From the IMG/VR virus record IMGVR_UViG_3300032304_000354, positions 1 through 21,779 of that record: a stretch of DNA of 21,779 nucleotides; one strand, written 5' to 3'. The translations under genes and the position numbers were made by a program. Under the pieces are notes generated by a model that had not been told where the DNA came from, searched no databases, and saw nothing but the letters and a program-made list of their open reading frames with translations. The stretch is from a virus. This document shows, piece after piece, positions 7,275 to 21,756 of the stretch (its first letter is position 1; each line of letters opens with the position of its first letter).

Positions 7275-7702
7275 AGCTGAACATTAGTCTAGTACCGTAT
7301 GGCGGATTGTCAAAAGCAGTAATGGCAATCATGCCGTACTTAGAAGAGTCGGCAATAAGAAGTAGAGGTCGGTCTTCTGTAGATGACATATTGAAGTTTT
7401 TGTTTACTGGGCAGATGGCGTTATGGGTTGTGTTTAATGAAGAGACGCATGAAGCGCACGGGCATTTCATTACAGAGGTCAAGCAGTATCCGCAATCAAG
7501 TATGTTGGTAATTCAGTACGCTGCTATGTTGCCTAATCACATGGATGAGATTGAGGATCTGATGCAGGAATATGCACAGGTGTATGCAAAAGATACTGGA
7601 TGCCGTGGGATAGAGTTTGTAGGCAGGCCAGGGTGGAAGAAACATGCAACTAAATATGGTTACCAAGCGCAGAGCGTGACGTACCAGAAATTCTTTGAAT
7701 AG
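7271..7702 (+). CDS. GNAT-like acetyltransferase-fold protein
   Basis: A 143-residue protein whose start overlaps the preceding stop by four bases (ATGA). The layout suggests a small GNAT domain: an N-terminal helix pair (LSKAVMAIMPYLEESA), a beta pair around LWVVFNEETHEAHGHFIT, a central strand SSMLVIQYAAML, a helix MDEIEDLMQEYAQVYAKDTG, and a C-terminal CRGIEFVGRPGW...KYGY, which matches the end of GNAT-type proteins often found among phage structural genes. The acetyl-CoA loop (Q/R-x-x-G-x-G/A) is not clearly recognisable, so catalytic activity is uncertain. It lies between virion genes and is probably co-expressed late; it could modify a virion or host protein, or be only structural. Confidence 0.55.
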   Translation: MKLNISLVPYGGLSKAVMAIMPYLEESAIRSRGRSSVDDILKFLFTGQMALWVVFNEETHEAHGHFITEVKQYPQSSMLVIQYAAMLPNHMDEIEDLMQEYAQVYAKDTGCRGIEFVGRPGWKKHATKYGYQAQSVTYQKFFE

Positions 7703-7710
7703 AGGCGATT

Positions 7711-8820
7711 ATGAGCCGAGTATCGTATGCAATGATGGAAGCTGGGTTTATACCTGGTGACTTGGGCGCGTTCAAAAAAGAGGGCGGCAAGATTAAGCTG
7801 TATGGTGACGGCGGTGGTGCATCATCTCAACCAACCAGCCAAACAGTCACCCAGCTATCTTATCCTGCTGAATACAAGCCTTTGGTTATGGAGGCTACTC
7901 AACGTGCGGTAACTGAGGCGTCTACTCCATACACTGCATACAAGGGTAATCGTATAGCTGGATTTGATCCTTTCCAGCTTACTGCCCAGCAGGCTGTAGC
8001 TAATCTTGGCCCAGCACAACAACTAGGCCCAGCAACACAGTACGCTGCTTCTGCGGGCGCTCGTGCGGGTGATGTTCAGTATCAACCGCAGACTAACTTT
8101 GGCGCACCTAGTTTTACGCAGCCAGGTCTAGCAGGTTTATACATGTCGCCATACGCACAGAACGTGGTGGATATTCAGAAACGTGAAGCACAACGCCAAG
8201 GTGATATAGCTAATCAACAGCTACAAGCAGGCGCTGTAAAGTCTGGCGCTTTTGGTGGATCCCGTCAGGCTATTTTGCAAGCAGAGGCTAATCGTAATCT
8301 GGCTCAACAGATGGGCGACATACAGAAAGCTGGCAGCCAAGCGGCATACGAGCAAGCCCAGAATCTGTACAGCAACGAAGCGCAGCGTCAGATGGCAGCA
8401 CAGCAGGCTACAGAACAATCGCGTCAGTATGGTGCAGGTCTCGGCTTACAAGGTCTACAGACACAGCTACAAGCAGCACAGCAGTTGGGTCAATTGGGTG
8501 GCGAGCAGATGAGCCAGCAGCAGGCAATCATCAATGCAATGCAGGCTGTGGGTCAGCAACGTCAAGCATTGAACCAACAACAGTTGTCGCAGCAATACCA
8601 AGACTTCTTAACGCAGAAACAGTATCCATATCAGCAGATTGCTTTCTTGCAGGAAATGTTGAAGGGTGTGCCGACACAAACAACAAAGTCTTTGTACGAA
8701 GCGCCTGAGTCTACAACGGCACAACTGGCTGGTTTAGGTTCAACCTTGTATGGTGCTAGTAAGTTCTTTGCGGGCGGTGGTCTTGCCGATCTAGGCATAT
8801 ACAATTTGTCTAAGGGGTAA
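7711..8820 (+). CDS. Gln/Ala-rich internal virion protein
   Basis: A 369-residue protein preceded by a GAGG Shine-Dalgarno-like site (7702-7705). After a Gly-rich start (KLYGDGGGASS) come a Pro/Tyr segment and a conserved-looking block (MSPYAQNVVDIQKREAQRQG, then GAFGGSRQAILQAEANRNLA), followed by long helices extremely rich in Gln and Ala (about residues 205-320). It ends in FFAGGGLADLGIYNLSKG. This arrangement is common in uncultured aquatic phages next to the SLT-containing gene, and I take it to be an internal or ejection-type virion protein, comparable in place and helical character to T7 gp14, although no sequence relation is claimed. No membrane segment or catalytic motif is seen. Confidence 0.7.
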   Translation: MSRVSYAMMEAGFIPGDLGAFKKEGGKIKLYGDGGGASSQPTSQTVTQLSYPAEYKPLVMEATQRAVTEASTPYTAYKGNRIAGFDPFQLTAQQAVANLGPAQQLGPATQYAASAGARAGDVQYQPQTNFGAPSFTQPGLAGLYMSPYAQNVVDIQKREAQRQGDIANQQLQAGAVKSGAFGGSRQAILQAEANRNLAQQMGDIQKAGSQAAYEQAQNLYSNEAQRQMAAQQATEQSRQYGAGLGLQGLQTQLQAAQQLGQLGGEQMSQQQAIINAMQAVGQQRQALNQQQLSQQYQDFLTQKQYPYQQIAFLQEMLKGVPTQTTKSLYEAPESTTAQLAGLGSTLYGASKFFAGGGLADLGIYNLSKG

Positions 8821-8822
8821 TC

Positions 8823-10796
8823 ATGTTTGGTGAGATAAATGCAATCCGTGCGCTTGCTACTAAGTACAGCAAACCGCAACTAGCAAACTTGGTGCAGACA
8901 GGTCAGCTTGAGCCGCAGAAAGCGGTGCTTGCTGGCATGATGATTGACCGCATAGCCAAGTCAGCTATGGAGCCTCCGCAGACTACAGTTGCTCAAGATG
9001 TATTAGGTGCAGCTCCTACATCAGGTCAAATGCCGCCAGGGCAAATGCAGCAAGGGCAAATGCCTCCACAGATGCCACCACAAAATGCCGGTGTATCTGG
9101 TTTACCATCTGGCATAAATGATATGGCTGGGGGCGGGATAGTTGCGTTTGCAGACGGCGGTGATGTACCTAGATTTGCTGAACGCGGTTATGTTGACCCT
9201 AATTTATTTAAGTCAGTAATTGCTGCTGAAAGCGGTGGCAATCCAAATGCTGTCAGTCCTAAAGGCGCTAGAGGTTTAGCCCAGCTTATGCCGGGTACTG
9301 CGCGTGATCCTGGATTTGGCGTAGAAGGCGTTAGGGATGACAGTCCTAAAGAAAATGTACGTGTAGGTAGAGACTATTTAAATGCCCTGATTAAAAAATA
9401 TGGCAACATAGATTATGCATTGGCTGCGTACAACATGGGGCCTGGCAACACAGATAAATGGATTGCTCGTGGCGCTAAGCCGGAAGAACTTCCAGCAGAA
9501 ACTCGTGCATACATACCTAAAGTAAAAGCAGGTATGGCACAAATGGACGCTAAATCTCCTATGCCTGGTGGAGAGCAATTAGCTGGTATTGCAGATTTAA
9601 TTCCATCTGCACAAGCAGCAGATACGCAACGCATACCTGCTGGCCCAGCCTCGCTCAGAGCGCAAGCCGCAAAAGCTGCTTCTGCTGAAGAAGAGGCATC
9701 TTATGATCCTATGACAGGTATGCGTATTTCTGGCCCAGAGCCTAAGCCTTACGATCCAACTGTAAAGCCTGGAACTATTGTTGAGCCAAATCCAATACGC
9801 GATATATTGCAAGGTAGGCCAAGAGCTGCTGGAGCGCAACCAGCTTTGCCTCCTATAGCTCCACCCAAAAAAGCGCAAGACACAACAGTTAATACTTTAA
9901 AACCTGAAAGTGCGGCGCCCGCAGCAGAAGAGAAGCCATCTATGGGGCCAGCTCGTTCTACTAATGCAGCTCAGCTTGGTAACTTCTACGGCGCATCTAT
10001 GGAAGAGCCAAAAGAAAGAACCCTGCAAGATGTGATGAAAGATCAAGCAGAATCAGATCGAGCTTATGGTGTTGATACTAAGAAGATGTTTGATGACCTA
10101 CGTTTGGACTACAAAAATTCTGCCGGAAACCTAAAAAATCGTGCAGACAAAGCGGCAGGCATGGCATTTATGATGTTTGGTGCTGGTCTAGCGGGCGCTA
10201 AGAGAGGCCGTGTTGGAGAAGCCGTAAGTAGATCTGGTCAGCAAGCTCTTACTTCGTACATGGGAGCAATGGAAAAGATCAACGATAACGAAGACAAGTT
10301 GCAGCAACGATTGCAAGATTTGTCTATTGCTGAGAACCAGTTTAATCGCGGTCGTTCTGACAAAGCATTGGCTGAAGTTCAATCAAGTAAGAAGGATATC
10401 CAAGCTATTCGTTTAGAAAATGCCAAGCTAGAAAATCAAGCCTTGATAAAAGCTGCGGAGTTTAGGGTTGATATATTTAAAAATGAAAACCCAGCTCAAT
10501 ATACTTTGCTTAAAAACATTGCAATTGAAAGCGGGAAAACTCCGGCTGAAATATTTATGATTGCGAATGGCGTAGCTAAAACTGGTGGCATGACTTTAAA
10601 AGATGCGCTTGAAGGCGTGCAAAGAAATATGAAATATGCAGGTATGACATTCCCTGAACAAATGCAGATTGCTAGGGAGGGTATAGGTGAAGGTGGTGGC
10701 GGATTACCTAAACCTAAAACAGCGGCTGATGCTGAAAAATTACCACCAGGTACACGTTACCAAGCGCCAGATGGATCAATAAGAACTAAGCAATAA
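8823..10796 (+). CDS. internal virion protein with SLT lytic transglycosylase (GH23) domain
   Basis: A 657-residue protein that should cleave peptidoglycan locally during DNA entry. After an N-terminal helical part comes a Gly/Met/Pro/Gln repeat (residues 68-87), the motif GGGIVAFADGGDV (103-115), then a complete SLT domain at about residues 124-235. Its catalytic Glu136 lies in VIAAESGGNPNAVSPKGARG, followed by GLAQLMPGTA (151-160) and AAYNMGPGNT (201-210), the three signature blocks of GH23. The remainder is a Pro/Ala-rich linker and a helical C-terminal half (about 400-620). The role parallels the N-terminal transglycosylase of T7 gp16, but here it sits in the middle-sized protein of the set. 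The ATG follows an AAGGGG SD-like site and the previous stop by two bases. Confidence 0.88.
   Translation: MFGEINAIRALATKYSKPQLANLVQTGQLEPQKAVLAGMMIDRIAKSAMEPPQTTVAQDVLGAAPTSGQMPPGQMQQGQMPPQMPPQNAGVSGLPSGINDMAGGGIVAFADGGDVPRFAERGYVDPNLFKSVIAAESGGNPNAVSPKGARGLAQLMPGTARDPGFGVEGVRDDSPKENVRVGRDYLNALIKKYGNIDYALAAYNMGPGNTDKWIARGAKPEELPAETRAYIPKVKAGMAQMDAKSPMPGGEQLAGIADLIPSAQAADTQRIPAGPASLRAQAAKAASAEEEASYDPMTGMRISGPEPKPYDPTVKPGTIVEPNPIRDILQGRPRAAGAQPALPPIAPPKKAQDTTVNTLKPESAAPAAEEKPSMGPARSTNAAQLGNFYGASMEEPKERTLQDVMKDQAESDRAYGVDTKKMFDDLRLDYKNSAGNLKNRADKAAGMAFMMFGAGLAGAKRGRVGEAVSRSGQQALTSYMGAMEKINDNEDKLQQRLQDLSIAENQFNRGRSDKALAEVQSSKKDIQAIRLENAKLENQALIKAAEFRVDIFKNENPAQYTLLKNIAIESGKTPAEIFMIANGVAKTGGMTLKDALEGVQRNMKYAGMTFPEQMQIAREGIGEGGGGLPKPKTAADAEKLPPGTRYQAPDGSIRTKQ
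9024..9089 (+). repeat. short in-frame tandem repeat encoding GQM-PP/QQ units
   Basis: An imperfect tandem of about 15-18 bases built on 'ggcaaatgc' plus a Pro or Gln codon pair encodes GQMPPGQMQQGQMPPQMPPQ (residues 68-87 of the SLT protein). It separates the N-terminal helical part from the Gly-rich motif and the transglycosylase domain, so it is most likely a flexible linker. Copy number could vary by slippage. Confidence 0.75.
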
Positions 10797-10805
10797 GGAA
10801 TCGCC

Positions 10806-13800
10806 ATGGCAAAAGAATGGTGGGAAAACGACCCTGTTGCAACTGCCGCAAAAGGTGATCAGTGGTGGTCAAATGATCCTGTAGTTGGAAAATCTGGCAA
10901 AGAAAAAGAACGCACCTTTGGTGAATCAATTACTGATATTGGCGCTGGATTAAAGTCTGGCGCTGGATCGCTGCTGCAATTGCCCGGTCAGATTTCTGGT
11001 GCTGTTTTTGGAGATTATGAAAAGCCAGGTCAAGAGACTGGCTTGACTGCTATTGGTAAAGAGATGCAGGCAGAAGCACAGGCCATGAAGTCTCCGGGTT
11101 TGAAAGCTCGCGAGGCTGAACGCTCTGCCAAAATATCAGAGGCAGAAAAGACTGGTCAAATTAACGCATTCTTTACTGCATTCTCTGAGACCGCCAAAGA
11201 CCCTGGGCTGCTGCTTAACTTTATGGCAGAGCAAGCCCCGCAACTTATTCCCGCGCTTGGTGCTGCTAGGTTAATTAAACCTATAGCTGGTACGGCTGCG
11301 GCTGTGCGTGGAGCTGTAGGTACTGGTGCCGTACAACAAGGCGCAGACATAGCTGCTGGTACGTATGAACAGATGTATCAAACGCTGGTGGACAAAGGCG
11401 TATCTGAAACAGAAGCGGCTGGTACTGCGCTGGGATACGCACGAGCTACCGGTGCTAGTGCTGCAGCCATATCTTTACTGGCACAACGCCTGCCAGGCGC
11501 ACGAGCTATTGAAGAAGCATTTGCAGGTCAGGAAGGTAAGCTAGGCAGAATCCTCGGTGGTATACGCGGAGGTGCTGGTGAGGCAATGAGTGAGACCGCA
11601 GAAGAAACTGGCGGCAAGTTTGCGCAGAACGTAGCACAGAGACAGGTTGATCCAAATGTGGAGCTAACAAGCGGCTTAGGTGAAGTTGCTGGTATGGCTG
11701 CACTTGGTGGTCTTGGGTTGGGTAGCGCTACAGGATTGGCACAAAGGCAAGCTGGTAGGCAAGAGGCAGCACCAGAAGAAAAGCAAATGCCATCTCAGTT
11801 TGCGGCAGAGGGTGAGCCAGAACGCACCCGTCCGTTGATGATTGAGTTTAAAGAGCCTCCTCCAAAAATTACTGATGCAGAGGTGCCTGCGCTTTTAACA
11901 GGAACGGAAGAAATTACACCTGTTAGTTTGCCAGACAATACTGTTGCATTAACAAAAACAGATTTGATTGAGTACACACAAGAGCAAGGTGTAGAAACTG
12001 GACTGACAGAAGAACAAGTAGATGCTTTGCGCGTTAGGGCAGAGTCCCCCCCTATTATTGAGGGGGAGTATGTATCTGAGCAGCCAGTGGAGCGAGAAGA
12101 AATTGTTGGCATGAGAGCAGACGCAGAAAGTTTGGAAAAAGAACGTCGCAAACTTGAACGCGGTGAAACAGGAAAAAGTCTGTGGTCTGCCATACAAGGA
12201 AAGCTTACGCCTTCAGATTTGGCGGAACTTGGTGGAGGAAAGTTTAAAAAGCTTAATGCTCCTGAAGGAGAAGGTAAGTCCATATCGGAACTTGCAGCCG
12301 ATGGATCGCTTAATGATTGGCTTCCTGGTGAGTTACGTATCAATCGTGATGAAATGGATGTTAGCCCTGAAGATGCGTTAGACCGTGCAATAGCGGCAGA
12401 TCAATATATTAAAGATAGATTGATTGAGGGCAACTATTTAACTTACCAAACCAACCAGCGGTTAGAAGAAATAGGCGCATCTTTACGCGAAATAGAACAA
12501 GCATATCAGGAGATCAACGATGAAGAATTATTCAATGCCCTCGCCCAAGAAGCAATTAATGAGCAAAGAGCAATTGATCAAGAAGCTGCGACAGCTCCCA
12601 CCGAAGGAGAGGTTGGAAGTATTGAACCACCTGAAGGAATTTTCGAGCGGGCAACAGAAGAACAAGTAAAAGAAGAAGACGAATACTATCCAGACAAATA
12701 CTTAAGCATTGAGCCGCAACGCGATGTACAAAAAAATCCATCGTTCCGTCGTGAAGCTGCAAAGTTAATTAAAACATATAACACGAACGATAAAATGTCT
12801 GCCGAATATGCAATGGCGGCTATGGGTCGTATATACGACAGAACTAAATCCGAAGATTCTGTTAATCCTCGCCGTCGCGGAGCAACATGGATACGTCGCA
12901 AACTTTTAGAAGCTGTTGATCAGGGCGTGTTGGATGAAAAAGCGATTGATTTTGCCGAATGGTTAATTAAACAAAACCCTGCGCTAGTAGAAGATTTAGC
13001 TATAGCAATTCAGACTGCTAAAGAAGGTAATGAGGCATCAGGTGGGTACAATCCTTTTGGCAGGATGTTTACTTTGTTTAAGGGAAGAGCGTCAGAAAAA
13101 ACTGCGGTGCATGAAATACTGCATCACATGGAACGCATGATGCCTGCAAATGTTCAAGATGAAATACGAAAACTGTGGATAAAGACTTTTATAAAAGCAA
13201 GCAAAGAGTCTACAAAAAGTACAGATGAAAATATAAAAAGTTTTTTTAACATACTTAGCAACTACCACTTTGGTGGTGGAACTCCATCAGAAACGCAGTT
13301 TAGATCGGCGTTGCAAATGATTGTAGATGGAAAAGTACCATCTCAATATTATCAGTTTGCAAATGCTTCAGAGTTTTGGGCAGTAAATGCTACTGACATT
13401 ATGTCAAAGCGTTTTGAGGCAAAGCAAGGCGTAATTAATCGCTTGCGTAATTGGTTAAGCGAGTTTTCGCAATACATAAAAGATGCGTTTGGATTTACCT
13501 CTAATGCTCCTATTCTTAGAGCTTTGGATAGCTTGATAAAGGGTGATGGTAAGTTTAAAAGTCAGACAATGCTTGGAGCAGCAACTACCTATGAAAGTAT
13601 TGTTGGGAAAGCAAAAGACGCGGCTCAAAAGATCGCTAAGAAAGCTTCCAGTCAGCGCCAGTTAGATGAAGAGGGATTTGAAGGCATCAGTCCAGACATG
13701 ATGGATCTGGTTAAGAAACATTTCTTTGCCGAGAGAAAAACTATTGTTGATAAAGTTGAAGGACTACAACAAGACTTCTGGAAGAAGATGGCGCAGGGTG

Positions 13801-16310
13801 TGGCTGACCAGTATCGCTCTATCAAAGACTATACTCAAGAAGGTTACATGCTTGCCCGTTTGTCTAAGACTGTGGATGGCGCGCTAGAAGGAATGCTGTT
13901 TAACGGTCAGGTCAAACTTACGGACGGCGCGTTAGATATTAAACAGGGAACCAAAGGCTTGATGCAGGTCATGGAACCTATAGGCAAAGAGGTTGATCGC
14001 TACATGATATGGGTAGCGTTGAGCCGTGATGCGCAGTTGCGATCACAGGGTAAGCAGGGATCTATTAGTCCTGAGTTAGTATCCAAACGAAAGCAATTCG
14101 TTGCTGGCACAATCAACGGTAAACCACGTTTAGAGGTATACCAACAAGTTCAAAAAGATATGAATGCGCTGAATAAATCAGTGCTAGATATTGCGTTCAA
14201 GCAAGGCATTATTGATCGCGTTGCTTACAACAACTTCTCTAAAGATATTAACTACGTGCCTTTTTACAAAGAAATGGAAAGCGGTGATATCCAGGGAGCT
14301 GCTACTGCCAGTGGTTTGGCTAATCAGTATTTCTCCAAGCAATTAGAAGGTGGCGAGAAAGCATTTGGCGATTTGATGGAAAACACGTTGCGCAACTGGA
14401 GTCACATCCTATCTGCGTCGATGAAGAACCAAGCAGCCAATGTAACAATGGATGCTGCTGTAAAGATGAATGCTGCATTCCCCAATTTAAAAGTTGGATT
14501 GGAGTGGCAAGACGGCAAAGTTTATTCATCCAAAACTGGTCAATTGGTTGGCGATGGTTCACTAAAGCCTGAGTACACAACTAGCAAGCCTGGCATGGTT
14601 AAGATTATGCGAGATGGCAAACCTACGTACTTTGACGTACAAGATCCTCTGTTGTTGGAATCCATTATGTCTATTGGATACCTTGGGCCAAAGTCAAAGT
14701 TTCTTGACGTTGCCAGAGACTTTAAAAACATATTGCAGGCTGGTGTAACTATCTCTCCTGCTTTTAAGGTTCGTAACTTAATACGCGACTCTGTGCAATC
14801 TGCCGCCGTTTCTCCAATAGGATTAAACATTGCAGGCAACGTAATACAGGGTCTTAACTTAAGCAATAAGGACAATCCTAATTACATCTCTGCTTTAGCT
14901 GGCGGCGGCATCTTTAACTTTGGTAGCTCTATGGAGGGCGACCAAGCCAAGCTAATTAAGCGCCTTATAAAGAGCGGAGTAGACTCCAACAATATCTGGA
15001 ATACAGAAGCAAAGATTACTGCTGGCATGAGCAAAGCATGGAAAGCATATCAAGATTGGGGCAACAAGTCTGAAGCTGCTAACCGTATTGCGCTATACAA
15101 ACAGTTACGCGATAAAGGATTAAGCCATCTTGAAGCGTCGTTCCAGGCTAGAGATTTGTTGGACTTCTCTATGCAAGGATCGTGGCCTGCGCTGCGAATG
15201 GTTACTCAAGTAGTGCCGTTCTTAAATGCGCGTATACAAGGTTTATACAAACTAGGTCGTGATGGAATTATTCCTACTAGTCGGGTTCTATATAACTCGG
15301 TTACTGGTCAGCCTATAGATGCTACTGACGCACAGAAAGCCAAACAATTTTCTGTTGTAAGTGGTGCTGTAGTGCTTGCATCTCTTATGCTGTACATGGC
15401 ATTCAAAGATGATGATGACTACAAGAAACGCGAACAGTGGGATCGTGACAACTTCTGGTGGTTTAAGCTGCCAGGCATGGATGCTGCCGTTCGTATTCCT
15501 AAACCATTTGAGATTGGTGCATTTGGTACGTTGGCAGAAAGAACAGCAGAACAGATCTTTGACCAAGGTGCTGAGGGTCGCGTGTTTGAGCAAAGCTTAA
15601 AGCGTATGCTGACAGATACGTTTGCTATCAATCCTATGCCACAGATGTTCAAGCCGCTGGTAGATCTGTATGCCAATAAAGATAGCTTTACTGGCGCGCC
15701 TATTGAGACAGCGGGCATGGAAAGACTTTCCAAGGCAGAGCGCATAGCTACCGGAACTAGTCCTTTGGCTATAGCTTTATCCAAAGTATCTAACGTGTTC
15801 TTACCTGAGAGCATGGAAACATCTCCAGTACAAGTTGACTATGCTATCAAGGCGTACTTTGGCTGGCTGGGCGCAACCATATCAGCTACCTCCCACTATG
15901 CCGTAATGCCATTTGCAAAGGGCGCATACCCTGACCATAACTGGACAGACACTATCTCTATGGGATTTGTGAAGACATTGCCATCTACCCAATCTGGATA
16001 TGTCACATCGTTCTACGAGAACATGAAGATTATTGAACAGTCGTATGCTGACATGCGTCACTACGCAGAGATAGGTAATTCTGAAAAAGTTCAACAAATT
16101 ATTGAAGAGCAGGGTGATAAGATTGCCATGGCTAAGTTCTACGACAAAACGTCTAAGGACATGTCAAAAATACGCCAGGTTATTAGCTTCATCCAAAACG
16201 ATGAAACGATGAGCGGCGCAGCAAAGCGTGAAGAAATTGACAGGCTCAAGATACTGATTGGTGATTTAGCCAAGCAGGCAGAGGATGTCAGGAAGTCAAT
16301 GAGAAACTGA
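10806..16310 (+). CDS. giant polyvalent internal virion protein with putative zinc metallopeptidase and LPD38-like region
   Basis: An 1834-residue protein with an AAGGA Shine-Dalgarno site (10796-10800) six bases before the ATG. It begins with two copies of WW-x-NDPV (residues 5-11 and 20-26). Residues about 145-315 contain Ala/Gly-rich helices that could insert in a membrane, and acidic, low-complexity sequence follows to about 690. A metallopeptidase motif, VHEILHHMERMMP, places His769, Glu770 and His773, with a candidate third ligand Glu856 in NASEFWA. The C-terminal half has a block around FKVRNLIRDSV (1320-1330), which resembles large polyvalent protein-associated domain 38, and a hydrophobic segment at 1515-1533. 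Polyvalent proteins of this kind are injected with phage DNA; a T7 gp16-like ejection role and/or processing of virion or host proteins is inferred. The 3' end overlaps the convergent HNH gene by 15 bp. Confidence 0.8.
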   Translation: MAKEWWENDPVATAAKGDQWWSNDPVVGKSGKEKERTFGESITDIGAGLKSGAGSLLQLPGQISGAVFGDYEKPGQETGLTAIGKEMQAEAQAMKSPGLKAREAERSAKISEAEKTGQINAFFTAFSETAKDPGLLLNFMAEQAPQLIPALGAARLIKPIAGTAAAVRGAVGTGAVQQGADIAAGTYEQMYQTLVDKGVSETEAAGTALGYARATGASAAAISLLAQRLPGARAIEEAFAGQEGKLGRILGGIRGGAGEAMSETAEETGGKFAQNVAQRQVDPNVELTSGLGEVAGMAALGGLGLGSATGLAQRQAGRQEAAPEEKQMPSQFAAEGEPERTRPLMIEFKEPPPKITDAEVPALLTGTEEITPVSLPDNTVALTKTDLIEYTQEQGVETGLTEEQVDALRVRAESPPIIEGEYVSEQPVEREEIVGMRADAESLEKERRKLERGETGKSLWSAIQGKLTPSDLAELGGGKFKKLNAPEGEGKSISELAADGSLNDWLPGELRINRDEMDVSPEDALDRAIAADQYIKDRLIEGNYLTYQTNQRLEEIGASLREIEQAYQEINDEELFNALAQEAINEQRAIDQEAATAPTEGEVGSIEPPEGIFERATEEQVKEEDEYYPDKYLSIEPQRDVQKNPSFRREAAKLIKTYNTNDKMSAEYAMAAMGRIYDRTKSEDSVNPRRRGATWIRRKLLEAVDQGVLDEKAIDFAEWLIKQNPALVEDLAIAIQTAKEGNEASGGYNPFGRMFTLFKGRASEKTAVHEILHHMERMMPANVQDEIRKLWIKTFIKASKESTKSTDENIKSFFNILSNYHFGGGTPSETQFRSALQMIVDGKVPSQYYQFANASEFWAVNATDIMSKRFEAKQGVINRLRNWLSEFSQYIKDAFGFTSNAPILRALDSLIKGDGKFKSQTMLGAATTYESIVGKAKDAAQKIAKKASSQRQLDEEGFEGISPDMMDLVKKHFFAERKTIVDKVEGLQQDFWKKMAQGVADQYRSIKDYTQEGYMLARLSKTVDGALEGMLFNGQVKLTDGALDIKQGTKGLMQVMEPIGKEVDRYMIWVALSRDAQLRSQGKQGSISPELVSKRKQFVAGTINGKPRLEVYQQVQKDMNALNKSVLDIAFKQGIIDRVAYNNFSKDINYVPFYKEMESGDIQGAATASGLANQYFSKQLEGGEKAFGDLMENTLRNWSHILSASMKNQAANVTMDAAVKMNAAFPNLKVGLEWQDGKVYSSKTGQLVGDGSLKPEYTTSKPGMVKIMRDGKPTYFDVQDPLLLESIMSIGYLGPKSKFLDVARDFKNILQAGVTISPAFKVRNLIRDSVQSAAVSPIGLNIAGNVIQGLNLSNKDNPNYISALAGGGIFNFGSSMEGDQAKLIKRLIKSGVDSNNIWNTEAKITAGMSKAWKAYQDWGNKSEAANRIALYKQLRDKGLSHLEASFQARDLLDFSMQGSWPALRMVTQVVPFLNARIQGLYKLGRDGIIPTSRVLYNSVTGQPIDATDAQKAKQFSVVSGAVVLASLMLYMAFKDDDDYKKREQWDRDNFWWFKLPGMDAAVRIPKPFEIGAFGTLAERTAEQIFDQGAEGRVFEQSLKRMLTDTFAINPMPQMFKPLVDLYANKDSFTGAPIETAGMERLSKAERIATGTSPLAIALSKVSNVFLPESMETSPVQVDYAIKAYFGWLGATISATSHYAVMPFAKGAYPDHNWTDTISMGFVKTLPSTQSGYVTSFYENMKIIEQSYADMRHYAEIGNSEKVQQIIEEQGDKIAMAKFYDKTSKDMSKIRQVISFIQNDETMSGAAKREEIDRLKILIGDLAKQAEDVRKSMRN
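10818..10883 (+). repeat. duplicated WW-x-NDPV motif at the N-terminus of the giant virion protein
   Basis: Residues 5-11 (WWENDPV) and 20-26 (WWSNDPV) repeat the same seven-residue pattern with a 15-residue period. The codons differ slightly, so selection on the protein rather than recent DNA duplication is likely. A docking or head-targeting signal is one possibility; nothing in the sequence proves it. Confidence 0.7.
16296..16310. other. convergent overlap of the last plus-strand and last minus-strand genes
   Basis: The giant virion gene stops with TGA at 16308-16310 on the plus strand and the HNH gene stops with TGA at 16298-16296 on the minus strand, so 15 bases code on both strands. 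No GC-rich hairpin with a T-run is seen between or just beyond the two stops, so there is no visible bidirectional terminator. Confidence 0.85.
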
Positions 16311-16586
16311 TTTATTGTGCAGCTCAATAGTCATCGCCATTAGATCCCACTCTGAGAGCTTATACCGTGTATAAAACCCTCTGCTACCTAACCCATGGTA
16401 ACCTGATTTTCCAACATGATGTTCAGGACAGAGGGGAATCACCAACCAGTCTGACGCCCGCTGCGCCCCACCCACTGCGTCGCGAGGATGGTGGAGAACG
16501 GCAGGCGAGTAGCCGTTCCCAAGATGGTGGCACATCACGCAACCTATGCCAGCTACTTCGTTCATATACTCTTTAACTGACTTCAC
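16296..16586 (-). CDS. HNH endonuclease, DUF968/Ref-like
   Basis: A 96-residue protein if started at the GTG at 16586, which has GGGGG four bases upstream and gives the usual family beginning (SVKEYMNEVAGIGCVMC). An ATG at 16622 would add twelve residues but has no SD-like site and deepens the overlap with the preceding gene to 50 bp. Visible motifs are Cys16-x2-Cys19, His32-His33 (LHHPRD), RASDWLVIPLCPEHH with Cys53 and His56-His57, and GYHGLGSRGF. These are the metal-binding and catalytic His pattern of the small phage HNH proteins related to DUF968 and the P1 Ref nuclease, which act in recombination or DNA repair on single-stranded or RecA-coated DNA. It is the last gene of the minus-strand operon and overlaps the late block at its 3' end. 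Confidence 0.8.
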   Translation of the reverse strand: MKSVKEYMNEVAGIGCVMCHHLGNGYSPAVLHHPRDAVGGAQRASDWLVIPLCPEHHVGKSGYHGLGSRGFYTRYKLSEWDLMAMTIELHNKSVSH

Positions 16587-16752
16587 TTTGCCCCCGTGCG
16601 CGTATAGCTTGAGCGCATTCAAATTGCGTCATCGCTGCTTTAACCATTGGGTCGCCACGATCACATAGCTTCGCACACGCCTCGCGCTCTATTCGAATAG
16701 CACCTTCAATAATCAATCGCACCATTTCTTCTGTGTATTCTTTTTTATCCAT
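16573..16752 (-). CDS. small protein of unknown function (59 residues)
   Basis: A short reading frame from ATG at 16752 to TAA at 16575-16573. Its start overlaps the stop of the upstream zinc-ribbon gene by eight bases (ATGGATAA), and the HNH gene starts within its 3' end. The protein is probably helical, begins MDKKEYTEEMVRLIIEGAIR, and has three Cys residues (26, 30, 46) that do not form a CxxC pair. The continuous chain of overlaps on both sides argues that it is a real gene. No family is recognised; a small regulatory or host-directed protein would fit its place. Confidence 0.55.
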   Translation of the reverse strand: MDKKEYTEEMVRLIIEGAIRIEREACAKLCDRGDPMVKAAMTQFECAQAIRARGQSEVS

Positions 16753-16942
16753 CGTTTCTATACCTCTTAGGTAGCTTGTAAGTTTTATCCCAAGTCTCCT
16801 GTGGGATTTCTATAGACGAAAACTTGTGGTCACATTCCCTGCACGCACGTTGGCGTTGCACAAAGTCAAACGTATTGGTTATGTCTCTGTACTTGCGCGT
16901 GTCTGTAACTTTAGTCGGACTATCGCACAATGGGCACCACAT
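16745..16942 (-). CDS. stand-alone zinc-ribbon protein resembling the NrdR N-terminal domain
   Basis: A 65-residue protein with MWCPLCDSPTKVTDTRKY near the start and RQRACRECDHKFSSIEI at residues 30-46: two CxxC pairs 27 residues apart and the D-[ST]-R...R-x-R-x-C-x-x-C-x-x-x-F-x-[ST]-x-E pattern of the DNA-binding ribbon of the ribonucleotide-reductase repressor NrdR. NrdR is about 150 residues and carries an ATP-cone, which is absent here, so this is a ribbon-only protein, likely a DNA-binding or transcription factor of the phage. An AGAGGAAAAAG Shine-Dalgarno region precedes the ATG. It overlaps the upstream 59-residue zinc-ribbon gene by 23 bases and the downstream small gene by eight. 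Confidence 0.75.
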   Translation of the reverse strand: MWCPLCDSPTKVTDTRKYRDITNTFDFVQRQRACRECDHKFSSIEIPQETWDKTYKLPKRYRNDG

Positions 16943-17099
16943 TCTTTTTCCTCTCTTCTATTCTTGCTAGACATCCTTTGCAGACCCAGCGTGGACTGCC
17001 CTTTGTTGGCTTGTACCCACCACCTTCTAGCGGCTTGAACATGTTGCAGTGAGCGCAGTATTTACGGTCGTAGTTCATGCGTTTACGCCACAGACTCAT
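16920..17099 (-). CDS. small zinc-ribbon protein (59 residues)
   Basis: A short reading frame from ATG at 17099 to TAG at 16922-16920, beginning MSLWRKRMNYDRKYCAHC. It has two CxxC pairs, Cys15-x2-Cys18 and Cys40-x2-Cys43, separated by a Gly/Lys-rich loop, and a basic C-terminal helix (ARIEERKK). This is a zinc-ribbon/knuckle layout, probably nucleic-acid binding. The ATG overlaps the stop of the SDR gene (ATGA at 17099-17096), so it is coupled directly to the sugar genes. No specific family is recognised; it could be a small transcription factor or recombination accessory protein. Confidence 0.65.
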   Translation of the reverse strand: MSLWRKRMNYDRKYCAHCNMFKPLEGGGYKPTKGSPRWVCKGCLARIEERKKNVVPIVR

Positions 17100-18007
17100 T
17101 CAAGTATTTCATCCGCAGCCAAGAAAATGTTTTCAATAGAAGATAATTCAGGTCTGTACCCAAGAGCATACGCCGCACTATTGACTGAATAATATTTCTC
17201 CTTCACGCCCGTAGCTGGCAGACCTACCGGCACACCAGTAGTCTCATACTCTAGCTTGTATCTCTGTGCCATAGCAGTTAGTAGGCTGTCTTTAGATACA
17301 GGCTGGCGGCTGTACATATCTACAGCAGTATTCATCTTGTCGTGCTTCATCAATACGTTAATCATTTGATGAAAGTCTCTTGGGCCAACATAGTCACGCA
17401 CGATAGGAGTACGGTCTACTTTGTATACAGTCTTCTCTTTGATGGCGCGGATCATGTCTGTGATCATGAACCTATAGTTAATGTTTATGTTAGTGCTGAA
17501 GTAATTGAACACTCGAAGGTCAAAGATATTGCGCTCGGTAATCCTGTGCTGGACTTCTGCCATTGCCTTGGCGTACCCGTAGTAATGTTTGGGCTGAAGG
17601 TTATTGAGAGGGAATGACGATACTTTGTCGATGTCTGCTGGTGTGTTGAAGTTGTCGCCAAAGACTGCGCCGCTAGAGATGAAGATGTATTTGCATTCAC
17701 GGTTGTTTGCTATGTAATCTAATGCCATTTGATCAAATATTTTAGTAATACTGAAAATCTGTTCACCTAAACTAATGACTTTCTCAGGACTGCCTGCGCC
17801 TACAAAGTTGATGATGACGTCTATGTCGCGGGTATGTCTGAATTCAAAGTAACTATTAGAAGTGTAGTTGTGAAAATTGTTTTCCATCATCCACAAAGTT
17901 ACGCCGCTGACGTTTCGTGAATACAGCGACAGATTATGCTCGTCGTTAAAAGACAGGATCAAATCTTTAGCTATGGCGCTAGTTGCACCCATTATGGCTA
18001 TCTTCAT
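17096..18007 (-). CDS. NAD(P)-dependent sugar reductase/epimerase, extended SDR family (YerF-like role proposed)
   Basis: A 303-residue protein with a Rossmann start MKIAIMGATSAIAKDL (the nucleotide-binding loop is G-A-T-S-A-I-A, with the last Gly replaced by Ala), an IINFVGAG strand, FISSGAVFG with the catalytic Ser at about 112, and Tyr143-x3-Lys147 (YGYAK). This is the active-site set of nucleotide-sugar epimerases, dehydratases and ketoreductases. Coupled (ATGA) to the C-terminal ThDP gene, it would most simply reduce the keto group of the branched sugar, as YerF does in yersiniose synthesis. The reaction is inferred from context; an abequose-synthase-like 4-keto reduction or an epimerisation is also possible. 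The N-terminal part of the gene is notably AT-rich (16 G/C of 60 at 17701-17760). Confidence 0.75.
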   Translation of the reverse strand: MKIAIMGATSAIAKDLILSFNDEHNLSLYSRNVSGVTLWMMENNFHNYTSNSYFEFRHTRDIDVIINFVGAGSPEKVISLGEQIFSITKIFDQMALDYIANNRECKYIFISSGAVFGDNFNTPADIDKVSSFPLNNLQPKHYYGYAKAMAEVQHRITERNIFDLRVFNYFSTNININYRFMITDMIRAIKEKTVYKVDRTPIVRDYVGPRDFHQMINVLMKHDKMNTAVDMYSRQPVSKDSLLTAMAQRYKLEYETTGVPVGLPATGVKEKYYSVNSAAYALGYRPELSSIENIFLAADEILE

Positions 18008-18735
18008 AGTTTTATCACCATTTCTTGTTGGAGTTCCTCATCAGATAGGAATGGAGTCATGTCATGCAGAGGTGCTTGCTTGCCGTCTTTGAACGATTGT
18101 GATGGCAGGACTTGCTGGTCTGGTGTGCAAATGCAATCAAACAAAACAGTATCAAATGTAGACAGAGAAAGTTTAAAGTGTATAGGTAGACTTTCAATAT
18201 GTTTGATTTTTACGTATGCCATATCAAATGTTACTGCTATGTTTATCATGTGAGGGAACCATACGCCTGTGTCTGGACTGGTGCCGTGTACTCTGCCTTC
18301 GTAGAACTTAGACTGCGTGTTCTTGATGCTGAGATAACCGGAGTTGTTTATAACAATAATTTTGATAGGCAGTTTGTGTTCACGGATAACAGCAAGCTCT
18401 TGCAGGTTGGACATGAAGCTGCCGTCACCCACAATACAGATAACTTGTTTAGCTCCAGCTTTAGCTACGCCTATAGCAGCAGGTAGTGCCCATCCCATGT
18501 CACCCTGAGACTGGCTCATGACTAACCGCTGTGTACCTTTAAACTTGTACGCCTGCGGGACTGTGTAGAAAGCTGTGCCAGCGTCGCACATAATCACAGC
18601 ATCATCTTGGCTGTACTTGCTTATGTTATCTAGCACCGCATAGATATCCAGACCATTGTCGTCCGGCAGGTATTCCCGCTGAGACCACTTCTGTTTCCAG
18701 TGGGTACACTTTTCTACCCATTCTTTTGCGTTCAT
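18004..18735 (-). CDS. ThDP-binding (PP-domain) subunit of a split acetolactate-synthase/YerE-like enzyme
   Basis: A 243-residue protein equal to the C-terminal third of acetolactate-synthase-type enzymes. After a short helical lead come DAGTAFYTVPQAYKF, SQSQGDMGWALPAAIGVAKA, and the thiamine-diphosphate/Mg motif Gly103-Asp104-Gly105-Ser-Phe-x2-Asn, with Asn130-Asn131 completing the GDG-x24-NN signature. It lacks the PYR and middle domains, which are encoded by the gene just upstream; start and stop overlap as ATGA (18735-18732). Together the two products give about 580 residues, the size of single-chain YerE or acetolactate synthase, so I read them as two subunits of one enzyme. The C-terminal 60 residues are less conserved in appearance. 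The stop overlaps the SDR start (ATGA). Confidence 0.85.
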   Translation of the reverse strand: MNAKEWVEKCTHWKQKWSQREYLPDDNGLDIYAVLDNISKYSQDDAVIMCDAGTAFYTVPQAYKFKGTQRLVMSQSQGDMGWALPAAIGVAKAGAKQVICIVGDGSFMSNLQELAVIREHKLPIKIIVINNSGYLSIKNTQSKFYEGRVHGTSPDTGVWFPHMINIAVTFDMAYVKIKHIESLPIHFKLSLSTFDTVLFDCICTPDQQVLPSQSFKDGKQAPLHDMTPFLSDEELQQEMVIKL

Positions 18736-19745
18736 AACATAGCTCCAAAGAATTGATCCAGTGGTACTTTTACTTTTTCATCTATGCGAATGATGTCTTT
18801 GTTAAGTTCATCCTGATCTATGTCCACATAAATCTTGTAGCTGTGCGGGCTGAACTGTTTAGGGTCATATCCCACAACTGGCGCACCTAAAGATGTGCCG
18901 AGAATAAGCAACATGCCTGCGTTTTGCATAACAAAGTTTCCAGTACGGTTGCCGCGAACTCCAACAGTTCCCATGTTTAGCGGGTGATCAAACGGTGCAT
19001 AGTCCTGCGCTCCGTAAGTAGTGACGAACGGCAGATTGTACTTCTCCACAAAATTCATAAATCCAGTTACACATCCTGACTGACGAATACCTACGCCAGC
19101 TAAAACTACTGGGCGGTAACCGGCATACAAAAGGGAAGTAAGTTTAAAGTGGTCAAAGATAGCTTTTGTAGGTTTGGTAGAAACGTATTCTAAAGACGTA
19201 TGTTCTGGCATCTGTGCTGCCTGTATGTTGCTAGGCACATCCACCCATACTGGCCCTGGTCTGCCGCGTGTGGCGTGGTCTACAGCCATGTGCATTGCGT
19301 ACTCCACGTTTGCTGGGTCGGTAATAAATGCAGCAAGCTTGGTCATGGACGCAACTGTATTCACAATGTCATGCTCTTGCGCGCCGTAGTGTCTAACTTT
19401 GACGTCTTTAAAAGTTCTTAACCAATGAGCTGTGTTATCAGCGCGCACGTTGCCTGACAGGAATAGGACTGGCACACCATCCTGCCAAGCGTTCAGCACA
19501 CTGGTCACGCAGTTAGTCCCACCGCAGCCTGTGGTGGGGTTCACCACAGACAATCTGCCTGTGTACTTGGATTCCCCTATGGCTGCATGCCCAGCGCCCT
19601 GCTCGTGGTGGTAGCAGATGTATTCAATCCCACGGTGTTTGATGAAGCCATCATTTAACCCTGCTGCGCCACCGCCCATCAGGCCATGAACTCTGTTGAC
19701 TCCTATCTCCCACAGGTAGTCTGCTATCCAGTCAGCTACTCTCAT
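18732..19745 (-). CDS. PYR + FAD-type middle-domain subunit of a split acetolactate-synthase/YerE-like enzyme
   Basis: A 337-residue protein starting at the ATG at 19745, whose first base overlaps the stop of the upstream dehydrase gene (TGATG). It begins MRVADWIADYLWEIGVNRVH, continues with GLMGGGAAGLNDGF, and has the catalytic Glu48 in HHEQGAGHAAIGES, which activates the thiazolium ring of ThDP bound by the partner subunit. NPTTGCGGTNCVTSVLNAW and GVPVLFLSGN follow as in the PYR domain. Residues about 180-330 fit the middle (TH3, nucleotide-binding) domain, ending in KIYVDIDQDELNK, the usual end of that domain in acetolactate synthase. There is no PP domain. In the YerE reaction a two-carbon acetyl unit from pyruvate is added to C4 of CDP-3,6-dideoxy-4-keto-glucose; here that substrate is inferred from neighbours. 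The open frame continues to 19967 but that part lies inside the dehydrase gene. Confidence 0.85.
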   Translation of the reverse strand: MRVADWIADYLWEIGVNRVHGLMGGGAAGLNDGFIKHRGIEYICYHHEQGAGHAAIGESKYTGRLSVVNPTTGCGGTNCVTSVLNAWQDGVPVLFLSGNVRADNTAHWLRTFKDVKVRHYGAQEHDIVNTVASMTKLAAFITDPANVEYAMHMAVDHATRGRPGPVWVDVPSNIQAAQMPEHTSLEYVSTKPTKAIFDHFKLTSLLYAGYRPVVLAGVGIRQSGCVTGFMNFVEKYNLPFVTTYGAQDYAPFDHPLNMGTVGVRGNRTGNFVMQNAGMLLILGTSLGAPVVGYDPKQFSPHSYKIYVDIDQDELNKDIIRIDEKVKVPLDQFFGAML

Positions 19746-20977
19746 CAGTAATCCTTTATAAACTTGTTGATGGTGTCTGCCACGTAGGTCAGCATCTCGC
19801 GGGTTAGAGCAGGCTGCACACCTACCCAGAACGTGTTGTTCATAACCTCGTCTGTCTTCTCTAGGCTGCCGTGGATGCGGTAGTTCTGACCCTTCATGAA
19901 CGGCTGCTTGGTAGCGTTGCCAGCAAAGACTAGCCGCGTTCCAATCTGGTGTTCGTTCAAATACCAAGTCAGTTCATCCCGCTTGAACTTGGCTCGCGGA
20001 GATACAGTGATAGGGAATCCAAACCACGAAGGCCACGCATCAGGATAGATAGTAGGCAGCCACAAATCCTGTTGATCTATCAGAGCTGATTGCAGGAACT
20101 TGTAGTTGTCCCTGCGCATCTGAACAAACCTGTCTAGTTGTTCTAACTGTCCCCAACCGCAGGCTGCCTGCATCTCTGTGATCTTCAGGTTGTAGCCTAC
20201 GTGCGTAAAGACGTACTTGTGATCGTACCCGTCTGGCAGGTCTTCAAACTTCTGGCAGAACCGCTGCTTGCAGGTGTTGTCCTTGCCAGGCTCGCACCAG
20301 CAGTCACGACCCCAGTCACGGAATGATTCGACTAGTCTAGTCAGCTTGGTGTTGTTGACTATCACCGCACCACCTTCGCCCATTGTGATGTGATGTGCTG
20401 GGAAGAATGACAGCGTAGCCAAGTCACCGAATGTACCTACCTTCTGGTTCTTCCACTCTGCACCTAGCGCGTCGCAGCAGTCTTCTATCAGCCACAGGTT
20501 GTACTTCTTAGCCACCTCTACCACTGCATCTACATTGAACGGATTGCCAAGCGTGTGCGCTAGGAAGATAGCCTTAGTTTTGTTAGAGATGGCGTTCTCT
20601 AGTTCTCTTGTGCAGATGTTCAGCGTCCAGTTAACGTCTAGAAATACTGGCACAGCTCCAAACTGGATAATCGGGTTGATCGTAGTAGGGAACCCGCAGG
20701 CAACAGAGATAACCTCGTCACCCTTCTTTATAGCCCTGTCCCCTAACTTCGGGGAGGTCAGAGCTGAGAAAGCAACGAGATTAGCAGAGCTGCCTGAGTT
20801 GACTGTGCGCACGGCCTTGCACCCAAGATACTTGGTCAGGCCATCCTCGAACCAGCGGTTGTACTGACCCGCAGTAAGCCAGCCCTTATCCACCGCATCG
20901 TGCATGTAGTCCTTCTCACGATCCCCTATCACTTGCCCGGAGGCAGGGATAAAGGTTTCTCCGGGGATAAAACTCAT
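19745..20977 (-). CDS. rfbH: CDP-4-keto-6-deoxy-D-glucose-3-dehydrase (E1, RfbH/DdhC type)
   Basis: A 410-residue PLP enzyme of the DegT/DnrJ/EryC1 fold. With its reductase E3 it removes the C3 hydroxyl of CDP-4-keto-6-deoxyglucose, the entry to 3,6-dideoxyhexoses. The motif FFPAHHITMGEGGAV carries His195 where aminotransferases have the PLP-binding Lys, which is diagnostic of the dehydrases. Cys168, Cys226, Cys228 and Cys236 match the E1 [2Fe-2S] motif C-X57-C-X1-C-X7-C exactly, and DWGRDCWCEPG and GYDHKYVFTHVGYNLKITEM are also typical. This separates it from ColD, which lacks the cluster. The start overlaps the glycosyltransferase stop (ATGA). No E3 (ferredoxin-type reductase) gene is in the window. 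GC content looks higher than in the SDR gene (30 of 60 at 20161-20220). Confidence 0.92.
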   Translation of the reverse strand: MSFIPGETFIPASGQVIGDREKDYMHDAVDKGWLTAGQYNRWFEDGLTKYLGCKAVRTVNSGSSANLVAFSALTSPKLGDRAIKKGDEVISVACGFPTTINPIIQFGAVPVFLDVNWTLNICTRELENAISNKTKAIFLAHTLGNPFNVDAVVEVAKKYNLWLIEDCCDALGAEWKNQKVGTFGDLATLSFFPAHHITMGEGGAVIVNNTKLTRLVESFRDWGRDCWCEPGKDNTCKQRFCQKFEDLPDGYDHKYVFTHVGYNLKITEMQAACGWGQLEQLDRFVQMRRDNYKFLQSALIDQQDLWLPTIYPDAWPSWFGFPITVSPRAKFKRDELTWYLNEHQIGTRLVFAGNATKQPFMKGQNYRIHGSLEKTDEVMNNTFWVGVQPALTREMLTYVADTINKFIKDY

Positions 20978-21756
20978 ACTGGTGTGCCTTGTGGAGCTTG
21001 CTGTTGCACGAACTGTTCAGGCTGCGGAGTCAGGATGCCGTCGAACATGTGTGTACCAATATGTGCAAGCTTTGCCCATGGTGCTGCCCATACAGTACCG
21101 CCGCACTTCTCACGCCATTCCTTGCAGAAGTGGTAGTCCTCGGACAGCAGACGCTCACCCAGTGGCTCGATGCTGGTAGCAAAGAATTCGGAGATACGCT
21201 CCTTACCGATGTTGCCACCTAGATCGTGCGTGTCGTTGATGTAGCTAGGTACGTGATCCTTTAGCTGTTCAAACACTTCGCGCTTGATTAACATGAATCC
21301 TGTGCCGCCATTCCAGATCTCAACTGGCGAGTTCACATCGACTTGAACTTGTTCGGCGTAGTTCATAAGGTTCACCACAAATGAGCCGGAGAAATGACGG
21401 AGCTGGTCTGGTGGTACACCTGCTACTGCTGCCCTATGAATCTGTTCCCAGTTCAATTCTTTCTTTGGATAAATGCCGCAGATGATTGGCTTGTCTGCCA
21501 GCATCATTGGAAGAACATCGGCTGGGTTAAAGCGAATGTCTGCATCAATAAACATCAGGTGTGTGTGGTCTGTCTTTAAGAAGCCATGTGCCAAGGCATT
21601 ACGTGCGCGCTGGATCAAGGACTCGTTAAACAAGAAACTGACAGCAGTATCAATTTTGTTTTGCTGCAACTGTGTTTGCAAAGTCATGAGTGCTTGTGTG
21701 TAATAGCCGTAGCACAGGCCGCCGTACATAGGTGTTGCGATAAACAGTTTTGCCAT
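20974..21756 (-). CDS. phage-type glycosyltransferase (GT-A fold, GT2-like)
   Basis: A 260-residue protein that probably transfers an activated sugar to an acceptor. It begins MAKLFIATPMYGG, followed by SFLFNESLIQRARNALAHGF and the GT-A nucleotide-sugar/metal motif FIDADIRF (Asp71-x-Asp73). GGTGFMLIKREVFEQL and LSEDYHFCKEW, the expected acceptor-side and base motifs, come later. No signal peptide or membrane segment is visible, so it should be cytoplasmic. An AGGA Shine-Dalgarno site lies about nine bases upstream of the ATG. It is the first visible gene of the minus-strand operon and is coupled (ATGA) to the E1 gene, so it may use the sugar made by the operon; acceptor (host LPS, virion protein, DNA) and donor are not readable from sequence. 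About 20 bases remain upstream to the window edge, with no visible promoter. Confidence 0.82.
   Translation of the reverse strand: MAKLFIATPMYGGLCYGYYTQALMTLQTQLQQNKIDTAVSFLFNESLIQRARNALAHGFLKTDHTHLMFIDADIRFNPADVLPMMLADKPIICGIYPKKELNWEQIHRAAVAGVPPDQLRHFSGSFVVNLMNYAEQVQVDVNSPVEIWNGGTGFMLIKREVFEQLKDHVPSYINDTHDLGGNIGKERISEFFATSIEPLGERLLSEDYHFCKEWREKCGGTVWAAPWAKLAHIGTHMFDGILTPQPEQFVQQQAPQGTPV

Follow-up and report, generated by a model that had tools for sequence, protein, structure and literature searches.

The closest described counterpart of the genes considered here is the CDP-yersiniose pathway of Yersinia, with its enzymes E1 (RfbH), YerE and YerF. YerE moves the two-carbon unit of pyruvate onto CDP-3,6-dideoxy-4-keto-D-glucose (PMC12247030). 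A review assigns the branching of surface sugars to YerE-like decarboxylases and puts forward split transketolases as a further kind, proposed but untested (PMC12247030). Here, we analyzed a 21,779-base virus fragment, the entire IMG/VR record IMGVR_UViG_3300032304_000354 (hereafter, the window), which carries four overlapping minus-strand genes at 17096–20977. They encode, in order, an E1, the N half (ThN) and the C half (ThC) of a thiamine diphosphate (ThDP) enzyme, and a short-chain dehydrogenase/reductase (SDR), with a glycosyltransferase gene ahead. The set has the same three enzyme classes as the CDP-yersiniose pathway, in the same order. It differs in being phage-borne, in lacking rfbF, rfbG and an E3-type reductase, and in having a ThDP enzyme that is in two pieces and distant from PpYerE. 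We consider it fairly likely that these genes form an exchangeable late-step cassette that uses a host intermediate, branches it with the split ThDP enzyme and serves a surface glycan. On sequence evidence the four genes are the product of neither chance nor decay, because relatives of ThN occur on 20 IMG/VR contigs and the ratio of nonsynonymous to synonymous substitutions (dN/dS) is low for both ThN and ThC.

E1 (19745–20977, minus strand; PF01041) is a predicted pyridoxamine phosphate- and [2Fe-2S]-dependent CDP-4-keto-6-deoxyglucose 3-dehydrase. It scored 636 bits on the NCBIfam RfbH equivalog NF011936 (curated cut-off 423) and aligned over its full length, with 507 bits, to the Y. pseudotuberculosis E1 of entry 3BCX. 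When aligned to 3BCX, the phage protein keeps the catalytic His that replaces the pyridoxal phosphate Lys (PAHHITMGEGG; entry 3BB8 has PAKHITM there). Cysteines 168, 226, 228 and 236 form the [2Fe-2S] motif C-X57-C-X1-C-X7-C, which is retained in relatives, and the E1 tree nests phage E1 within bacterial RfbH. Hence the earlier call, made from the DNA alone, of an E1-type dehydrase with a His at the cofactor site and a full iron-sulfur motif holds, with both sites exact. Members of the DegT family differ in reaction, and E1 might in principle be aminotransferase- or ColD-like, with the cassette making another sugar class that has no C-branch. The complete iron-sulfur motif, the active-site His and the RfbH equivalog score make this improbable, as does the regular pairing, across these phages and many bacterial clusters, of E1 with ThDP enzymes that form C–C bonds.

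ThN (18732–19745, minus strand; 337 aa; PF02776 and PF00205, the PYR and middle domains) and ThC (18004–18735, minus strand; 243 aa; PF02775, the PP domain) jointly span a normal ThDP enzyme. In this family the active site is built from a Glu-bearing PYR part and a PP part with the GDG-NN motif. The catalytic Glu48 (HHEQ) lies in ThN and the GDG...NN motif for ThDP and Mg lies in ThC, and the active site would therefore require both halves. ThN begins at the ATG of a TGATG; a longer open reading frame (ORF) that starts with TTG at 19967 is a mechanical extension inside E1. At the split junction (18730–18750, minus strand), the ThN stop and the ThC start share the sequence ATGA, and a ribosome-binding-like GGAG, which lies within the end of ThN some 8 nt ahead of the ThC ATG, is conserved in the window and in all seven relatives compared. 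Both halves are under purifying selection (dN/dS 0.13–0.24 for ThN and 0.09–0.27 for ThC). We rejected a frameshift or a pseudogene as the origin of the split because of this selection and the conserved junction. Fifteen split enzymes of the window type, cut at nearly the same place, form a single clade with support 100. A search of 398 Pseudomonadota genomes turned up bacterial relatives, each a single frame of roughly 600 aa. We found no prior description of a two-subunit YerE-like synthase, or of such a cassette, in the open-access literature searched with a few terms.

We asked what kind of ThDP enzyme the two halves make. A true acetolactate synthase (AHAS) for branched-chain amino acids, adjacent to E1 by accident, is hardly tenable. 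The top NCBIfam matches of the pair are indeed AHAS models, yet the halves score 160 and 110 bits, far under every AHAS cut-off (538 for TIGR00118). Moreover, transketolases occupy the same slot in sister phages, and the E1-ThDP-SDR order is conserved. The sequence-only reading had named a firm grouping with true acetolactate synthases as the result that would overturn it. No such grouping appeared: in the ThDP tree, a quick one made without bootstrap and with some long branches, true AHAS stand apart from the phage split clade at support 100. We therefore rejected an AHAS identity on the NCBIfam cut-offs and the tree. Among solved structures, the joined halves matched 8rph with 288 bits, AHAS I with 200 and 5ahk, which we take to be PpYerE, with 185. 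The best match, 8rph, is JanthE, a YerE-like enzyme (PMC12188165). Unlike the phage pair, JanthE is a single chain with a CDG motif and a wide donor range (PMC12188165, PMC12247030). Although JanthE is the best solved match, the quick tree places the phage split clade apart, as sister to neither PpYerE nor JanthE. The proposed YerE type thus survives in the broad sense, with the pair outside the PpYerE clade. The pair is also gene-linked to rfbH and a yerF-like SDR gene, and its assignment as a predicted YerE-like synthase in the broad sense, distinct from true AHAS, stands.

The SDR (17096–18007, minus strand; PF01370, epimerase family) is an extended SDR and is predicted to be a YerF-like keto-sugar reductase. 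Its Ser-Tyr-Lys residues S112, Y143 and K147 are invariant. The predicted structure (predicted local distance difference test, pLDDT, 92.5) has the extended SDR fold, and its best fold match was 8v4h, a reductase of the CDP-glucitol pathway (Z 31.4, root mean square deviation 2.6 Å over 298 aligned residues), with many nucleotide-sugar SDRs close behind. In bacterial clusters the ThDP gene is followed by an SDR gene, whose product shares 42–47% identity with the phage protein. Two such clusters from Burkholderiales (L175 and L186) have the gene order rfbF, rfbG, rfbH, ThDP, SDR, in which RfbF and RfbG were named from the sequence by eye. Their last three genes are syntenic with the phage genes, and their E1 is about 59–62% identical. 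Unlike the phage, they hold a complete pathway, an unsplit ThDP enzyme and surface-polysaccharide genes downstream. The shared order bears out the earlier proposal that the phage genes encode the late E1, YerE and YerF steps.

The strongest evidence for the function of the cassette comes from the exchange of its central enzyme. In sister phages E1 is kept and the SDR usually kept, and the enzyme between them varies. An unsplit ThDP synthase of 593–596 aa fills the slot in six (L027, L029–L032 and L039), and a split transketolase pair fills it in four (L024, L028, L033 and L038). At the DNA level, the window and L024 are 87% identical over the glycosyltransferase and E1 genes, have no match over the ThDP and SDR genes, and are 88% identical beyond. 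Similarly, L038 and L029 share 96.9% identity as far as the E1 end, carry a transketolase and an unsplit ThDP enzyme, respectively, and match again at 86.7% from the SDR start. The breakpoints coincide with gene ends. These contigs are metagenome assemblies, and the same junctions recur across several samples. All 20 same-group phage E1 proteins fall into one clade (support 100), and at least five changes of enzyme type map onto it. Bacterial E1 clusters have a YerE-like or a split transketolase partner, the same two choices as the phages. Because two unrelated enzymes with like chemistry replace one another, we suggest that C-branching is the shared purpose. Because a transketolase replaces the branching enzyme in sister phages, the cassette probably has no single product across phages. 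Whether the arrangement amounts to a combinatorial sugar-branching system is an evenly balanced call: a 3-dehydrase that stays constant at its fixed site would be coupled to repeatedly swapped ThDP enzymes for C–C bonds, a two-subunit YerE-like synthase among them, such that each phage makes its own branched sugar from a diverted host CDP-sugar.

The site itself is accessory. We compared 24 records in which the neighboring HNH gene was at least 75% identical and at least 5.5 kb of upstream sequence was available. Fourteen of them carry the cassette, and at this site the cassette-free records that were read carry different glycosyltransferases or lack sugar genes. The order glycosyltransferase-E1-ThN-ThC-SDR-zinc ribbon-HNH beside a large LPD38 protein is common in IMG/VR contigs. 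A complete relative, G005, has a genome of 67,062 bases, a 20-base terminal repeat and an E1 gene that continues across the junction. The sequence-only reading supposed that the phage makes its own branched sugar. The window record ends just upstream of the glycosyltransferase, and we looked for rfbF-, rfbG- and E3-like genes in same-group relatives. Neither RfbF nor RfbG appeared above cut-off in 29 viral records, same-group phages included, and the same records contained no Fer2 domain, the mark of the E3-type iron-sulfur flavin reductase that partners E1. In G005, bacterial RfbH, ThDP and SDR queries found matches, and RfbF and RfbG queries did not. The early genes and the Fer2-type reductase are thus absent from all same-group records searched, which led us to reject a self-sufficient pathway for this phage group. 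As these genes are missing even from the complete genome, the host must supply both CDP-4-keto-6-deoxyglucose and electrons, and the cassette seems to be a late-step module that draws on this host intermediate. Lysogenic conversion was also rejected, since no PF00589 integrase was found in 22 same-group records; a strictly lytic life is not thereby proven. Among 399 Burkholderiales genomes sampled, most of those with an E1 at cut-off have one that is about 54–62% identical, which indicates that suitable hosts exist.

We propose that a phage lineage whose genomes measure about 60–67 kb, and in which no integrase was found, carries an exchangeable glycan cassette at a fixed accessory site. E1 would remove the 3-OH of host-made CDP-4-keto-6-deoxyglucose with electrons from the host. 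The ThDP enzyme, formed by two halves that are translated separately, would then add a short, probably two-carbon, keto-acid unit to C4 of the CDP-4-keto-3,6-dideoxyhexose, and the SDR would reduce the new side-chain ketone. In sister phages, where the ThDP slot holds a YerE-like enzyme, split or unsplit, or a split transketolase, such exchange would alter the branch and diversify the sugar. What the sequences show is the identity of the genes, their catalytic residues, the split and the selection on it, the gene order shared with bacterial clusters, the exchanges and the lack of early genes; we infer the substrates, the order of reactions and the product, a C4-branched CDP-3,6-dideoxyhexose, as well as the target and the benefit. 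The late steps behind the earlier suggestion of a yersiniose-like product stand; an acetyl branch and yersiniose itself are guesses, because the ThDP pair falls outside the PpYerE clade.

During infection, finally, neighboring phage glycosyltransferases would transfer the branched sugar onto an acceptor, most likely a glycan of the host surface. It is possible, if unlikely, that the same chemistry instead decorates the virion proteins of the phage itself (tail or capsid): in G005 the cassette adjoins one GT10, one GT2 and two glycosyltransferases of phage type, and neither a flippase nor a polymerase gene was noticed next to it. However, the bacterial counterparts of these genes serve lipopolysaccharide/O-antigen (PMC12247030). 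An accessory cassette, found in 14 of the 24 comparable records, is also a poor fit to an essential part of the virion. Phages glycosylate modified bases as well, and the glycosyltransferases beside the cassette might place the sugar on phage DNA to counter restriction. We regard this as very improbable: to our knowledge, no CDP-3,6-dideoxy sugar occurs in DNA, and DNA modification was rejected because no gene of the thymidylate-synthase/dCMP-hydroxymethylase family, and hence no supporting gene, was found in 22 same-group records.

Several points weigh against the late-step, surface-glycan account. The window is a fragment rather than a whole genome, and the trees in the analysis are quick ones. 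The ThDP pair is only about 30–38% identical to any bacterial enzyme found, and for this reason its donor and acceptor are not readable from the sequence. A genome scan with the ThN alignment returned only enzymes of 34–38% identity, most without an adjacent E1 of the RfbH kind; the scan relied on exact peptide patterns, by which relatives may be missed. A search of reference phages yielded no close ThDP kin, the matches there being AHAS-like at 26–31% identity. The phage has no E3 partner for E1, which a host could supply. That the host makes CDP-4-keto-6-deoxyglucose is presumed, and E1 reaches the cut-off used in only 46 of the 399 Burkholderiales genomes. By a structural protein, the nearest named phages are DSL-LC04, 023Pt_psg01, CRP-901 and HTVC027P (31–38% identity), and they do not point to a host. 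Lastly, some related ThDP enzymes (L114–L120) belong to clusters that lack such an E1, and the wider ThDP clade therefore has other functions. In six of these (L114–L118 and L120), from very different bacteria, the YerE-related gene stands beside genes that look NeuB-like, FabZ-like and AMP-ligase-like by eye.

Phage sugar genes are frequent, but a pathway fragment that apparently draws on a host intermediate and has its branching enzyme swapped at exact gene ends would show how phages come to vary surface or virion sugars. The cassettes also offer natural two-subunit YerE-like enzymes. The review reports split-gene transketolases proposed for branched sugars only from Streptomycetes (PMC12247030); sister phages and some bacteria place such a pair beside E1, whereas the window carries the decarboxylase type. 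The transketolase variants are a direct route to test the unproven branching of keto sugars by split transketolases (PMC12247030).

Related ThDP enzymes are also split elsewhere, in unrelated phages. In other phages with E1 (L053, L054, L065, L066, L069 and L046), the enzyme is cut after the PYR domain, and enzymes of this form occupy at least two further places in the ThDP tree. In L066 a GIY-YIG-like endonuclease ORF (7579–8565) lies between the two halves, which hints at a role of mobile endonucleases in the splitting. The window-type pair recurs in two T4-like phages (L018 and L019) and in L011, followed just downstream by a gene resembling RmlB, a dTDP-glucose 4,6-dehydratase; L018 and L011 additionally have an E1-like gene. 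This suggests a different nucleotide-sugar version. In L009 an oxygenase-like ORF (9466–10000; 2-oxoglutarate type, by eye) lies between E1 and ThN. One further record (IMGVR_UViG_3300045125_000015; L020/L060) has the same cassette, but almost all of its genes are altered in frame, probably through sequencing error.

The glycosyltransferase (20974–21756, minus strand; GT-A-like; phrog_1574, 149 bits) opens the overlapping run. It overlaps E1 by 4 nt, E1 overlaps ThN by 1 nt, and the ThN/ThC and ThC/SDR overlaps are 4 nt each, in agreement with the four-gene order and coupled glycosyltransferase first read from the sequence. The protein is 74–96% identical among same-group phages, and its low-confidence AlphaFold model (pLDDT 75) matches GT-A enzymes including GtrB. 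Downstream, the exchanged segment is flanked by a 65-aa NrdR-like zinc ribbon (16745–16942, minus strand; PF22811, 33 bits) in conserved gene order; it is of the NrdR type without the ATP-cone domain and is kept across the phage group. The accessory site is bounded by a conserved Ref-like HNH nuclease (16296–16622, minus strand; PF16786, 29 bits). Beyond it, positions 10806–16310 encode a protein of 1834 aa that has an LPD38 domain and, near its start, a weak match to the virion-RNA-polymerase family.

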